Positions 28,959 through 32,711 of a stretch of DNA of 64,000 nt are shown piece by piece. The notes under the pieces were generated by a model. The model had not been told where the DNA came from and did not search any database. It saw only the letters and a program-made list of their open reading frames with translations. This DNA is from Mesorhizobium sp. L2C084A000 (GTDB lineage Bacteria > Pseudomonadota > Alphaproteobacteria > Rhizobiales > Rhizobiaceae): the NCBI RefSeq assembly GCF_000502875.1, contig NZ_AYWX01000006.1:198472-262471 (forward strand). The letters are read 5' to 3'. The position numbers and the translations under genes are program-made. The stretch's first letter is position 1. Each line of letters opens with the position of its first letter.

Positions 28959-29060
28959 GAGCAATTCCAGGAAAAGTGTGAAACGGTTTTCCGTCGAGAA
29001 TTGCGTCGAGACAAGGAGATGGGAGCGGTTCTGCGTTTCCGTGAAACGATGAACCGCTCT
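28959..29060. repeat. RIME-like element, copy 1 (two palindromes)
   Basis: The first palindrome runs from GCAATTC to GAATTGC (about 28961-29005) with AGGAAAA/TTTTCCG inside. The second runs from GAGCGGTTC to GAACCGCTC with CGTTTC-CGT-GAAACG inside. A close copy lies at 34203-34304 and a half copy at 37803-37848. Size and layout match the rhizobial intergenic mosaic element RIME as I know it. Confidence 0.8.
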
Positions 29061-29088
29061 AGACGAGCGTGAGCAAGGAGAAGCAGCC

Positions 29089-29862
29089 ATGGCCTATGAG
29101 ACGATCATCACCGAGACGCACGGCAAGGTTGGGCTGATCACGCTGAACAGGCCGCAGGCGCTCAACGCGCTGAATTCGCAGATTCTGACCGAAGTGGTGG
29201 CAGCCGTGAACGGGTTCAGCGCCGATCCAGATATCGGCGCCATGGTCATCACGGGTTCCGAAAAGGCTTTCGCCGCCGGCGCCGATATCAAGGAGATGCA
29301 GTCCATCTCCTACGCGGACGCCTACGCTCAAGACTTCTTCGTCGGCTGGGAGGAACTGACGCGGGCGCGAAAGCCTATTATCGCGGCGGTGGCGGGCTAT
29401 GCACTCGGCGGCGGCTGCGAGCTGGCGATGATGTGCGATTTCATTATCGCCGCCGACACGGCCAAATTTGGCCAGCCCGAGATCACCCTCGGCGTCATTC
29501 CAGGCATGGGCGGGTCACAAAGGCTGACCCGCTTCGTCGGCAAGTCGAAAGCGATGGACATGTGCCTGACCGGGCGGATGATGGATGCCGCCGAGGCCGA
29601 GCGTTCTGGTCTGGTGTCGCGGGTCGTGCCTGCCGGCGAGCTTGTCGAGGAGGCGCTGAAGGCCGCAGCCAAGATCGCCGCTTTCTCACTACCATCGGTG
29701 ATGATGGCGAAGGAGGCTGTCAACCGCGCCTTCGAGACGACGCTTGCCGAGGGATTGCGGTTCGAGCGCCGGCTGTTTCACTCGCTGTTTGCACTGGACG
29801 ATCAGAAGGAAGGCATGGCGGCCTTTGCCGAGAAGCGGAAGCCGAATTTCACCAACCGCTGA
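29089..29862 (+). CDS. Enoyl-CoA hydratase (crotonase family)
   Basis: Encodes 257 residues of the short-chain enoyl-CoA hydratase family. Both catalytic glutamates are present: E111 in [10 protein letters not shown] and E131 in [12 protein letters not shown]. The oxyanion-hole motif is [11 protein letters not shown]. It should hydrate 2-enoyl-CoA in beta-oxidation. AAGGAGAAGCAGCC precedes the ATG at 29089. Its position between mutM and rpsT is conserved in many Hyphomicrobiales as far as I recall. Confidence 0.92.
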
Positions 29863-29923
29863 CGCCAATCCCTTGGCCGCGAAGAAGATGGCTGTTGGCC
29901 GCCAAAAAGAAGACCGGGCAGCG

Positions 29924-29951
29924 TTGACGCGCCGGAAAAGCTGAACTATAA
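29924..29951 (+). promoter_or_regulatory. Candidate sigma-70 promoter of rpsT
   Basis: TTGACG (29924-29929) and CTATAA (29946-29951) are separated by 16 bases, close to the housekeeping consensus. Transcription would begin near 29958, giving an 87-base leader for rpsT with a terminator-like hairpin inside it. Confidence 0.5.
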
Positions 29952-29965
29952 GCCGCACCAACCGA

Positions 29966-29996
29966 GGCGGCCCCGTGGCTGCCCGTTTGTTTTTTG
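29966..29996 (+). terminator. Terminator-like hairpin in the rpsT leader
   Basis: GGCGGCC (29966-29972) pairs with GGCTGCC (29977-29983, one G-U pair), followed by CGTTTGTTTTTTG. It lies between the candidate rpsT promoter and the rpsT start. It could end readthrough from the hydratase gene or act as an attenuator for S20. The four-base loop and interrupted T run make it moderate in strength. Confidence 0.45.
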
Positions 29997-30044
29997 CGCC
30001 CTGCGGCATTCCGCATGCGCCGACCAGATCAGAAGAGAGGCATC

Positions 30045-30311
30045 ATGGCCAATACATCCTCGGCCAAAAAGGCAACGCGCAAGATCGTCCGCCGCGCAGC
30101 GATCAACAAGAACCGCCGCTCGCGCGTCCGCACCTATATCCGCCAGGTCGAAGAGGCGCTTGCCTCCGGCGACAAGGCTGCCGCACAGGCTGCCTTCAAG
30201 ATCGCGGAGCCGGAATTGATGCGCGCCGCGACCAAGGGCGTGATTCACAAGAACACGGCGTCCCGCAAGGTGTCGCGACTGGCTCAGCGGGTCAAGGTAC
30301 TGTCGGCCTGA
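30045..30311 (+). CDS. rpsT: 30S ribosomal protein S20
   Basis: Encodes 88 residues, the normal S20 length. It has the typical start [22 protein letters not shown] and Arg/Lys-rich helices, with the conserved [13 protein letters not shown] region. S20 binds 16S rRNA early in assembly. The ATG at 30045 follows AGAGAGGCATC; an upstream in-frame ATG at 29994 would add an unlikely N-terminal extension. A terminator follows and then the dnaA control region. Confidence 0.95.
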
Positions 30312-30339
30312 CATTACTTGCCTAGACTGACGTTCTTCG

Positions 30340-30366
30340 AACCCGGCCGTTTGTGCCGGGTTTTTT
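30340..30366 (+). terminator. rpsT terminator
   Basis: AACCCGGC pairs with GCCGGGTT around a seven-base loop, followed by TTTTC. It is 28 bases after the rpsT stop and shows a classical intrinsic terminator layout. Confidence 0.85.
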
Positions 30367-30490
30367 CGTTTGCCGGCAAGCACTTAAAAAGAATGTCCGG
30401 AAACGGCGTCTTAGGCGGATTTCACAATTGGGAATAGTTTGCCGGCATATGCATGCCTGCTGTTGATCGGCATGCTTGAAAAGGGCCAGC

Positions 30491-30505
30491 TTAATGATTC
30501 TTAAC
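30491..30505 (+). promoter_or_regulatory. CtrA-like site overlapping a GANTC site upstream of dnaA
   Basis: TTAATGATTCTTAAC has two TTAA half sites six bases apart (consensus spacing is seven), and the spacer contains GATTC, a CcrM methylation target. It lies 40 bases before the paired DnaA boxes. Confidence 0.35.
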
Positions 30506-30545
30506 TGTCAGAAATAGCTTATAATTTTCAGACACTTACTGATGG

Positions 30546-30565
30546 TGATCCACAGCTTGTCCACA
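30546..30565 (+). promoter_or_regulatory. Pair of DnaA boxes one helical turn apart
   Basis: TGATCCACA (30546-30554) and TTGTCCACA (30557-30565) each differ at one position from TTATNCACA. Their starts are 11 bases apart, so both would face the same side of the DNA. A third box, CTATCCACA, is at 30773-30781. Autoregulation of dnaA is the simplest reading. Confidence 0.55.
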
Positions 30566-31163
30566 CCGGGCCGACCCGATCGGGGACAAGTCGCTGTCAA
30601 GCGAATTATTTCAGAATATTTCTCTCAGCGTCCGGTTTTTCATATTCGCCGGAAAAGGGTTTGAATCACAATGGCTTTGTTAAAATGTGCCGTCACGGCA
30701 CGCCACTCGAACCCGCCTCCAGTAACCAGATTCCTTAAAAATCCGTTAGACGTGGCCTTGCCCTATCCACAGCGATTTCGGTAGTGTCGATCTATCGAAA
30801 GGGACGGGCTCTGGCTCTTAACCCAAGCCTGAATCGGCCAGCTTAAATTGGCGGGATTTGCAACGCGGATCAAGTCCGCGGACGGGTTTGGTTTGTCTTT
30901 TTCGATACGGTAGGGGACTGGCGTAACTAGACATGGCAGGTAGACGGCGCGCCGGCGCTCCTTTCGCCGGACGGTGTTGTATTGCCCTGACATACCCAAC
31001 GCGGACTGGCTTCCATGGGCCGGCACCGGTTCCCGCAGATAATGGGCGACGTTCATCTGCCGGCGGCGGCAGCGGACATCGTAGCAAAGACTTAGGTCGC
31101 CGGAACCGGATGCAGGAGGCGCATCCCCGGTGGAAACAGGTACGGAAGAACAAGGAAAAGATC

Positions 31164-32711
31164 ATGCAGAGCGGCATCGAAAGGGAGCTTACGGGCGACC
31201 TCCCATTTCCTGGAACTTTGATCGGAGCAAACGACATGGCGGTGTCCAGCGACGCGGAACAGAAATTCGACCGGGTCAAAGCCCAGTTGAAGGCGCGCCT
31301 GGGAACCGAAGTCTATTCGAGCTGGTTTGGCCGCATGAAGGTCGCCGAGGCTTCCAAGGGCATCGTCCGCATCTCGGTGCCTACTGCCTTCCTGCGCTCA
31401 TGGATCAACGGCCACTATCTCGACCTCATCTCCGAGTTGTGGAAGCAGGAGGATCCCGATCTCCTCAAGATCGACATCGTCGTGCGCACGGCAACCCGTC
31501 AGGGACGCAGCCAGGCCGAGCCAGAGGTAACGCCAGCACGCAGCAAGGTGACACGGCAGACGCAGACGGCGCTTGCCGCCGGCACAGTCAGCCCCAGCCG
31601 GGTGGAGCGCGCACCGGCTCCGCGTCCGGGCACACCGATCGAGAGCGAATTCCGCCACAACGTTTTGGGATCACCGCTCGATCCGCGCTACACGTTCGGC
31701 TCCTTCATCGAGGGACCGTCGAACCGGGTGGCCTTCGCCGCCGCCAAGGCAGTGGCGGAATCGCAATCGAGCGCGGTGCGCTTCAATCCGCTTTTCCTTC
31801 ACGCAACCGTCGGGCTCGGCAAGACACATTTGCTGCAGGCCATCGCCGCGGAATCGCTGAAGCAGAACCCCAAGTCGCGCGTCGTCTATCTCACGGCCGA
31901 GTATTTCATGTGGCGCTTTGCCACCGCGATCCGCGACAACAACGCGCTGACGCTCAAGGAACAGCTGCGCGACATCGACCTGCTCATCATCGACGACATG
32001 CAGTTTCTGCAGGGCAAGTCGATCCAGCACGAATTCTGCCACCTCATCAACATGCTGCTCGACAGCGCCAAGCAGGTCGTCGTCGCCGCCGACCGGCCGC
32101 CATCGGAACTGGAATCGCTCGAACCGCGGGTCCGTTCGCGCCTCAATGGCGGTGTCGCGCTTGAAATGTCGGCGCCCGATTTCGCCATGCGCCTCGGCAT
32201 GCTCAAATTGCGCCTTGCCACGGCCAGGAGCGACGACGCGTCGCTCGACATTTCGGAGGAGATCCTCAATCACGTCGCCCGCACCGTGACCGGCAGCGGA
32301 CGCGAGCTGGAAGGCGCCTTCAATCAGCTTTTGTTCCGTCAATCCTTCGAGCCGCAGATCACCATCGACCGGATCGACGAAATCCTCGGCCACATCTATC
32401 GCACCGGCGAGCCGAAGCGTGTCCGTATTGAGGACATCCAGCGCATCGTGGCGCGTCACTACAATGTGTCGAAGACCGAATTGCTGTCCAACCGGCGCAC
32501 GCGCACCATCGTCAAGCCGCGGCAGGTCGCCATGTACCTGTCGAAGGTGATGACGCCGCGCTCGCTGCCTGAGATCGGACGGCGTTTCGGCGGCCGCGAT
32601 CACACCACGGTGCTGCATGCCGTGCGCAAGATCGAGGACCTTTCCGGCAACGACAACACGCTGGCGCAGGAACTTGAGCTTCTGAGGCGGTTGATCAACG
32701 ACCAGGCCTGA
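31164..32711 (+). CDS. dnaA: Chromosomal replication initiator DnaA
   Basis: Encodes 515 residues. Domain I has the [10 protein letters not shown] stretch. A variable linker rich in Ala, Thr, Gln and Arg spans about 110-165. The AAA+ domain has Walker A VGLGKTH (216-222) and Walker B LLIIDD near 273-278. The C-terminal DNA-binding domain carries the DnaA signature [17 protein letters not shown] chose the ATG at 31164 because AAGGAAAAG lies just before it; a later ATG at 31236 ([10 protein letters not shown]) is also possible. Sensor/arginine-finger sequence differs from E. coli ([14 protein letters not shown]) but this is normal for rhizobia. It heads the dnaA-dnaN-recF group. Confidence 0.96.

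Follow-up and report, generated by a model that had tools for sequence, protein, structure and literature searches.

A conserved GANTC site in the dnaA promoter region and a covarying RNA domain at the predicted 5' end of the dnaA leader in Mesorhizobium and its relatives

The rpsT-dnaA region and the sequences compared

The region described here lies between rpsT and dnaA in Mesorhizobium sp. L2C084A000. The window, that is the whole stretch of DNA analysed, comprises 64,000 nucleotides, and all positions are given within it. The two genes and the terminator between them are as follows.

30045-30311, plus strand: rpsT (ribosomal protein S20), the gene upstream of dnaA; an open reading frame that served as tblastn anchor in 78/80 relatives
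30339-30363, plus strand: rpsT terminator, from a terminator scan; its stem columns are highly conserved
31164-32711, plus strand: dnaA, with its start most likely at ATG 31164 (MQSGIEREL), 24 codons 5' of ATG 31236

The sequence ATGCA at the dnaA start (middle base free) is kept in 76/79 aligned sequences, and over 31164-31235 the third codon positions are less conserved than the other two (0.66 compared with 0.78 and 0.78). A first-pass annotation had described positions 30491-30781 as a composite cell-cycle control region. Judged from its sequence, this segment forms the upstream half of a Mesorhizobium dnaA promoter and ends inside a conserved promoter-like pair; the more interesting element, an RNA domain, sits just downstream of it. 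The GC content of the segment is 0.467, compared with 0.585-0.656 across 2-kb steps of the window.

The rpsT-dnaA gap was aligned in 79 sequences, consisting of the window and 78 of the 80 relatives fetched via DnaA. The two left out (L066 and L079) lack rpsT, each being cut by a contig end. The DnaA proteins of the window and of Mesorhizobium sp. M7A.F.Ca.US.008.03.1.1 (L002) share 99.6% identity. A diverse subset retained 62/79 gaps (<93% alike), and 54 of these 62 entered the leader alignments. For the wider family, which we take to be the Rhizobiaceae in the GTDB sense, DnaA searches of 151 genomes provided 80 loci; removal of three without rpsT and ten repeating named relatives left a set of 67 loci with both genes. 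L124-L163 form a second group, presumably 'Rhizobium-type'; 21 of its loci fit a promoter pattern, of which 20 were aligned (alignment A4) and L152 was left out. From a sample of order-level genomes, nothing but the dnaA position in one complete relative (G123) was taken. Queries with the gap against a plasmid collection and with the 5' RNA domain against a phage collection returned no similar DNA.

Promoter elements and regulator sites upstream of dnaA

The gap contains the following features, given with their conservation among the 79 aligned gaps and, where stated, the 67 wider-family loci.

30438-30449, no strand assigned: TTTGCCGGCATA, conserved; 75/79 gaps keep its TTTGC at 30438, scored with the middle base free
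30492-30506, plus strand: CtrA-like TTAA-N6-TTAAC (TTAATGATTCTTAAC from 30492) with GATTC in its spacer; this strain only (1/79)
30496-30500: GANTC1, GATTC inside the CtrA-like spacer; GATTC in 7/79, GANTC in 8/79 and in 11/79 within 4 bases
30546-30554, plus strand: DnaA box 1, TGATCCACA; 72/79 gaps and 17/67 in the wider family
30557-30565, plus strand: DnaA box 2, TTGTCCACA; 12/79 strict, 34/79 relaxed, 4/67 in the wider family
30595-30601, plus strand: TGTCAAG block; 78/79
30663-30667: GANTC2, GAATC in the window; 79/79 (75 GAATC, 4 GATTC)
30729-30733: GANTC3, GATTC; 65/79
30758-30763, plus strand: predicted -35, TTGCCC, from the family alignment; CTTGC at 30757 (middle base free) in 79/79, top of 919 windows
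30763-30771, plus strand: DnaA box 3, CTATCCACA, in the -35/-10 spacer; 65/79 gaps and 7/67 in the wider family
30782-30787, plus strand: predicted -10, TAGTGT (TAATGT is common in relatives), from the alignments

In the window the promoter-like pair is TTGCCC-N18-TAGTGT; many second-group rows have TTGATC-N17-CTAAAT, and across the wider family a -35/-10-like pair can be made out in many rows. A simple sigma-70 scan called no promoter at the TTGCCC/TAGTGT pair; what supports the assignment is therefore its conservation, together with the transcription of such leaders in relatives. Such a core promoter (-35 at 30758, -10 at 30782) would start the dnaA mRNA at about 30794.

Several further elements occur in this gap and its counterparts. 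The sequence TTTGCCGGCA appears twice between rpsT and dnaA, 69 bases apart, as TTTGCCGGCAA at 30369-30379 and as TTTGCCGGCATA at 30438-30449, and both copies are well conserved. The TGTCAAG block is followed by AT-rich ATTATTTCAGAATATTTC; together (30595-30622) they may be a factor site or belong to a second promoter. In the second group (L128-L150) many dnaA promoters carry two GANTC sites 10-11 bases apart, equal to one helical turn. Beside GANTC2, the sequence CAA-N5-TTG at 30669-30679 fits the form CAAN3-5TTG that has been given for the NtrX motif (PMC9223101).

GANTC sites are far fewer in the window than expected, 98 compared with a shuffle mean of 339. The 291-base stretch upstream of dnaA contains three, where ~0.45 would be expected at the density of these 98 sites; a fourth, at 30831 and kept in 28/79, falls inside the predicted transcript. 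GANTC2 is exceptionally well conserved. Among 919 five-base windows scored with the middle base free, it ties for the top value (79) with the CTTGC of the -35. In the wider family a GANTC is found within 5 bases of the aligned place in 63/67 loci and within 15 bases in 65/67, while other sampled places average 2.5/67 with a maximum of 34/67 at the 5-base margin. The genome encodes a member of the GcrA family (E 5.1e-59) and one RAMA-domain protein (E 4.6e-16), a candidate CcrM; we take the RAMA domain to be typical of CcrM. Two marks of a GANTC/CcrM-responsive promoter, a conserved GANTC and the presence of a putative CcrM-type (RAMA) enzyme with GcrA, are thus found, and at the level of sequence the methylation proposed in the first-pass annotation is borne out at GANTC2. 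The site could be methylated by CcrM and would become hemimethylated once the fork passes; we infer a consequent effect of methylation on the activity of the dnaA promoter. In Caulobacter such a change in methylation state has a small but significant effect on the activity of the dnaA promoter (PMC3973325). The dnaA promoter of Caulobacter crescentus described there resembles this one in its conserved GANTC upstream of dnaA, here accompanied by GcrA family and RAMA-domain proteins, and differs in placement, since GANTC2 lies ~115-120 bp upstream of the predicted -10.

It is also possible, though we doubt it, that GANTC2 is kept as a palindrome for a transcription factor, NtrX or another, and not for methylation. 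Position 30663 shows GAATC or GATTC only in the 79 gaps, and in 5/67 wider-family rows (L086, L095, L099, L109 and L112) the site is embedded in the 15-base palindrome GTTTTGANTCAAAAC. In three more wider-family loci (L130, L139 and L141) the sequence CAAAACCCTTG runs straight into GATTC at GANTC2 and overlaps it; CAAAACCCTTG is present in a Sinorhizobium meliloti dnaA promoter probe bound by NtrX, and its mutation nearly abolished binding (PMC9223101). However, it is GA-TC itself that is present in 79/79, windows starting one and two bases earlier drop to 73, and the flanks of GANTC2 vary between genera.

One-mismatch DnaA boxes number nine in the window, and three of them lie in these 291 bases, more than expected by chance. 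Boxes 1 and 2 are 11 bp apart on the same strand. In relatives box 2 is often of the TTGTTCA type, and its relaxed count allows TTGTTCACA-type letters. The suggestion that DnaA controls dnaA holds in part: box 1 and box 3, the latter within the promoter-like spacer, are well conserved among the 79 gaps, but box 2 is not, and in the wider family boxes 1 and 3 are scarce. Because these two are found in only 17/67 and 7/67 wider-family loci, DnaA control, if real, would belong to this branch. Box 3 is a conserved box placed to act on the promoter, as in a DnaA-autoregulated dnaA promoter, and since it lies between the -35 and the -10, DnaA binding there would repress dnaA. In this branch DnaA may therefore repress its own gene through box 3. 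A DnaA box is also found in the promoter region in the autoregulation of E. coli dnaA (PMC8203912); there the box lies between dnaAp1 and dnaAp2, whereas here it is inside the spacer and is shared by few loci outside this branch.

The CtrA-like site is present at the place where it was first described, with GANTC in its spacer, but it is private to this strain. A search of the 79 gaps for TTAA-N6/7-TTAA finds it solely in the window, and the canonical TTAA-N7-TTAAC with up to one mismatch gives no match at 30492 because the spacer is six bases, not seven. CtrA control of dnaA was rejected on these two grounds, occurrence in 1/79 gaps and the wrong spacer, and CtrA gets no support in a model for dnaA. 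Strain-private motif matches such as this are a warning against reading them as regulation. Elsewhere in the window, the segment 22489-24303 holds five of its seven one-mismatch canonical CtrA sites; the translations there resemble what we take to be a Tad/Flp pilus locus, where CtrA control would be expected. Brilli et al. likewise give CtrA sites as absent upstream of dnaA in rhizobia (PMC2877005).

All of the motifs named in the first-pass annotation, three DnaA boxes, three GANTC sites and the CtrA-like site, do occur in this AT-richer DNA. When the gap is aligned across relatives, box 1, box 3, GANTC2 and GANTC3 are kept (65-79 of 79), but box 2, GANTC1 and the CtrA-like site are not. That DnaA, CtrA and methylation jointly control dnaA via all of these sites is very improbable. 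Four of the sites are kept in most of the 79 gaps, but the CtrA-like site with its spacer of six occurs in one, GANTC1 in eight, and box 2 in 12 by the strict and 34 by the relaxed count.

The same region had been put forward as large enough for a test of origin activity; such activity is not supported. Three DnaA boxes in an AT-richer gap would be consistent with a replication origin, but boxes 2 and 3 are found in only 4/67 and 7/67 wider-family loci, and a gap beside hemE exists on another contig (C15). The gene next to hemE there is, from its translation, presumably the COG1806/DUF299 gene. The 369 bases taken as this gap (L083:9227-9595) contain six GANTC sites and two one-mismatch DnaA boxes; four of the GANTC sites fall within 37 bases (L083:9228-9264) at the hemE end. 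In Caulobacter the origin was found experimentally in the gap between hemE and COG1806, and for Rickettsia the location given is the same (PMC1914354). The dnaA gap resembles an origin of this type in having DnaA boxes and GANTC in AT-richer DNA, but its flanks are rpsT and dnaA, and the hemE gap is separate in this genome. In the complete relative G123, hemE and dnaA lie ~0.84 Mb apart. GC skew was looked at in the window, in G123 around hemE and dnaA, and over a sample of 40 stretches of 20 kb from G123, and is too weak to separate the two places. In this sampled and weak fit for a single relative, dnaA does as well as hemE (0.0130 compared with 0.0128 by span); with equal weights on the same data the values are 0.0077 for dnaA and 0.0066 for hemE, and the best fit lies between them at 5.28 Mb of G123. 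One strict parS pattern has no match in G000 or G123. Origin activity at dnaA is unlikely and the origin probably lies elsewhere; we regard the upstream region as a very improbable origin.

A structured RNA domain at the predicted 5' end

The predicted dnaA transcript begins with the following elements.

30794-30906, plus strand: 5'-terminal RNA domain of the predicted dnaA transcript; the fold closes at these ends and shows covariation
30794-30805 with 30895-30906: P1, a 12-bp closing helix
30806-30817: P2; the domain also contains P3
30864-30880: P5
30952-30970, plus strand: leader hairpin CCGGCG/CGCCGG; the outer five pairs are kept in 49-53 of 54 rows and the innermost in 34/54, with some two-sided changes

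The fold of 30794-30906 has an energy of -47.1 kcal/mol (z -3.5), equalled by one of 200 shuffles, with agreement between the minimum-energy and centroid structures. Folded as a whole, the leader is unexceptional (z -0.34), and the 5' domain alone stands out. Early column-shuffle z-scores were set aside as proof because upstream control windows also reached -5.7. Further downstream in the leader, many Mesorhizobium rows share a hairpin at 31108-31126 (GGATGC-AGGAGGC-GCATCC) that presents AGGAGG in its loop, 45 nt before the start codon.

A covariance model (R1) was built from 54 leaders and applied to 30 wider-family loci outside the training set, all of which it finds at E <= 0.003. Some of these 30 loci are closely related to rows used in training (as L087 is to L044), and R1 includes a few promoter bases that are conserved; for both reasons the matches by themselves are no proof of structure. 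Pairing was counted directly and compared with shuffled and slid controls. In the model-fitted alignment of the 30 test loci (A3), 82.1% of cells are paired, compared with 72.1% shuffled and 32-55% slid. Two-sided changes are seen at 20/22 pairs, in 75 cells compared with 25.5 shuffled and 12-25 slid. Because fitted alignments flatter a structure, the pair counts were repeated on unfitted alignments. With unfitted MAFFT, the same 30 loci have 67.4% of cells paired (62.4% shuffled, 38-58% slid) and two-sided changes at 15/22 pairs in 53 cells (25.7 shuffled, 23-30 slid). The 54 training rows, also unfitted, have 84.0% paired (80.3% shuffled, 33-55% slid), with two-sided changes at 17/22 pairs in 41 cells (15.4 shuffled, 17-33 slid).

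The helices are not equally firm. P5 is the firmest, with 96.6% of cells paired in A3, 91.5% in the 30 unfitted loci and 96.6% in the 54 training rows. P1 is second (82.8%, 63.0% and 84.8%, respectively), and both P2 and P3 are weak: 68% and 63% of their cells pair in A3, and 20-52% do so in the 30 unfitted loci. RNAalifold alone returned P5 but not P1, from the 54 rows as well as from A3. P1 had been named from single-sequence folds and by eye, and it therefore rests on the pair counts, on those folds and on the second group.

Loci of the second group (L124-L163) have no R1 match at E <= 0.01, and many of their leaders carry a helix in the same place made of different letters. In the unfitted alignment of 20 of these loci (A4), two-sided changes occur at 12/15 pairs, in 37 cells compared with 12.2 shuffled and 6-19 slid, the slid control here leaning towards the structure because this was named after viewing the rows. 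In both alignments A-C oppositions are more depleted than G-U, with 21 found and 47.7 expected in A3 (G-U, 78 and 97.9) and 13 found and 25.1 expected in A4 (G-U, 44 and 61.0). Since an A-C opposition is a G-U on the other strand, the stronger A-C depletion is a modest sign that it is the plus-strand RNA that is kept. A covarying secondary structure, as expected of a structured cis-regulatory leader, is thus present. Overall, comparison across the aligned loci supports the conservation, the promoter-like pattern and the RNA structure.

Among the 151 family genomes scanned at E <= 0.01, R1 matches 53 and R2 another 30. Many of the 53, as well as 20 of the 30, are sources or repeats of sequences on which the models were built, unlike the other 10 R2 genomes. 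The remaining 68/151 match neither under strict filters that lose weak matches, as seen for G206, G204, G281 and G207, which match R1 in a separate scan but not in this one. The position is well conserved. Of 84 R1 and R2 matches, 78 lie 158-822 bp upstream of a DnaA match on the same strand, the fixed place directly 5' of one gene expected of a structured leader. Five more sit at high coordinates on a contig where the DnaA match starts at base 1-182, and are probably also directly upstream of dnaA. The last is a weak second R1 match in the genome of the window (E 0.0096), about chance level over 151 genomes. Rfam covariance models gave no match at E <= 1 in 29000-32500, and a search of the literature and Rfam found no description of the 5'-domain fold.

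Transcripts are known from this locus in two relatives. In Agrobacterium tumefaciens, data suggested a 369-nt dnaA 5' UTR of which the sRNA C3 is apparently a part (PMC3738593). In S. meliloti, sra10, with an estimated length of 383 nt, lies between rpsT and dnaA, and its authors list it as a possible ORF and as lacking counterparts in M. loti and others (PMC2245857). The probes for the S. meliloti dnaA 5' UTR extend to -372, and the level of this leader rises on overproduction of the sRNA EcpR1 (PMC4414408). The leaders of both species share the locus and a similar length with the present one, transcribed there and predicted here; they differ in that no structure of the 5' domain was found in the available text of the three reports (PMC4414408, PMC2245857, PMC3738593). 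The Caulobacter dnaA 5' UTR is likewise a folded leader (PMC8443254), whereas the one predicted here is ~370 nt long and has a domain that the 5' terminus itself closes.

As sra10 and C3 were first reported as sRNAs at this locus (PMC2245857, PMC3738593), the 5' part could be an independent small RNA that lies upstream of dnaA by chance. This seems improbable: later data suggest that C3 belongs to the dnaA 5' UTR (PMC3738593), and 78/84 matches, with five more probably, are directly upstream of dnaA.

Possible functions of the dnaA leader

Based on sequence comparison, it is likely that a methylation-marked, perhaps DnaA-autoregulated promoter feeds a long structured leader that would set the stability or translation of the dnaA mRNA. 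In this reading the leader would be ~370 nt long, and its first 113 nt would form a closed RNA domain in which P1 pairs from the very 5' end, with hairpins inside. Stems at the 5' terminus can protect an mRNA from 5'-end-dependent decay by RNase E. In S. meliloti, the dnaA mRNA undergoes RNase-E-dependent decay promoted by EcpR1 (PMC4414408); the authors of that study noted that it was not yet known what the long 5' UTRs of dnaA and gcrA do, and went on to report that sRNA control acts through these. Given both the protective capacity of 5' stems and this decay, the likely role of the domain concerns the life span of the dnaA mRNA or access to its leader. While the structure is supported, its function is inferred: most likely the domain would shield the 5' end from RNase-E-type decay and in this way set DnaA output, and pairing of an sRNA may take place elsewhere in the leader.

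A compact, closed and covarying leader domain could also be a riboswitch or a transcription attenuator, which we consider unlikely. In a riboswitch the unpaired nucleotides should be highly conserved, but here their mean identity is 0.54 in A3 and 0.53 in A4, with 4/68 and 9/99 unpaired columns at >=90%. A structure that is kept while its loops vary argues against a ligand pocket. As regards attenuation, a site at 30865-30896 with CTTTTT after it was flagged in the terminator scan; it corresponds to P5 and P3, its tail being the T-rich 3' strand of P1. As this strand serves both, P1 and a terminator could exclude each other. Terminator-like hairpins also exceed single shuffles (51/79 compared with 27, 19/30 with 12, and 33/37 with 16, the last set including rpsT terminators), and attenuation is listed by the EcpR1 authors as a possible cause of leader accumulation (PMC4414408). 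However, the terminator-like matches fall at scattered places with no fixed site across rows. In the second group a hairpin after P1 covaries, and four or more T follow it in 5/20 rows (L131, L136, L144, L150 and L153, by eye), but the T run is missing in the other 15 rows of A4, and this hairpin was dropped as a general terminator.

To our knowledge, how rhizobia set their DnaA levels is poorly known. There is a further and more tentative proposal, which we think less likely than not: that the dnaA mRNAs of the family begin with a previously undescribed structured RNA family whose closing helix starts from the 5' terminus itself, that its opening and closing by a protein, a small RNA or a growth signal would switch the mRNA between a protected and an RNase-E-sensitive state, and that the near-invariant GANTC would couple the promoter to fork passage. 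With a defined, covarying element of 113 nt that has a closing helix, and one near-invariant methylation site, the question of DnaA levels is reduced to two concrete mutations. If the proposal is true, replication initiation in this family would be coupled to physiology after transcription, in addition to being coupled to fork passage at the promoter.
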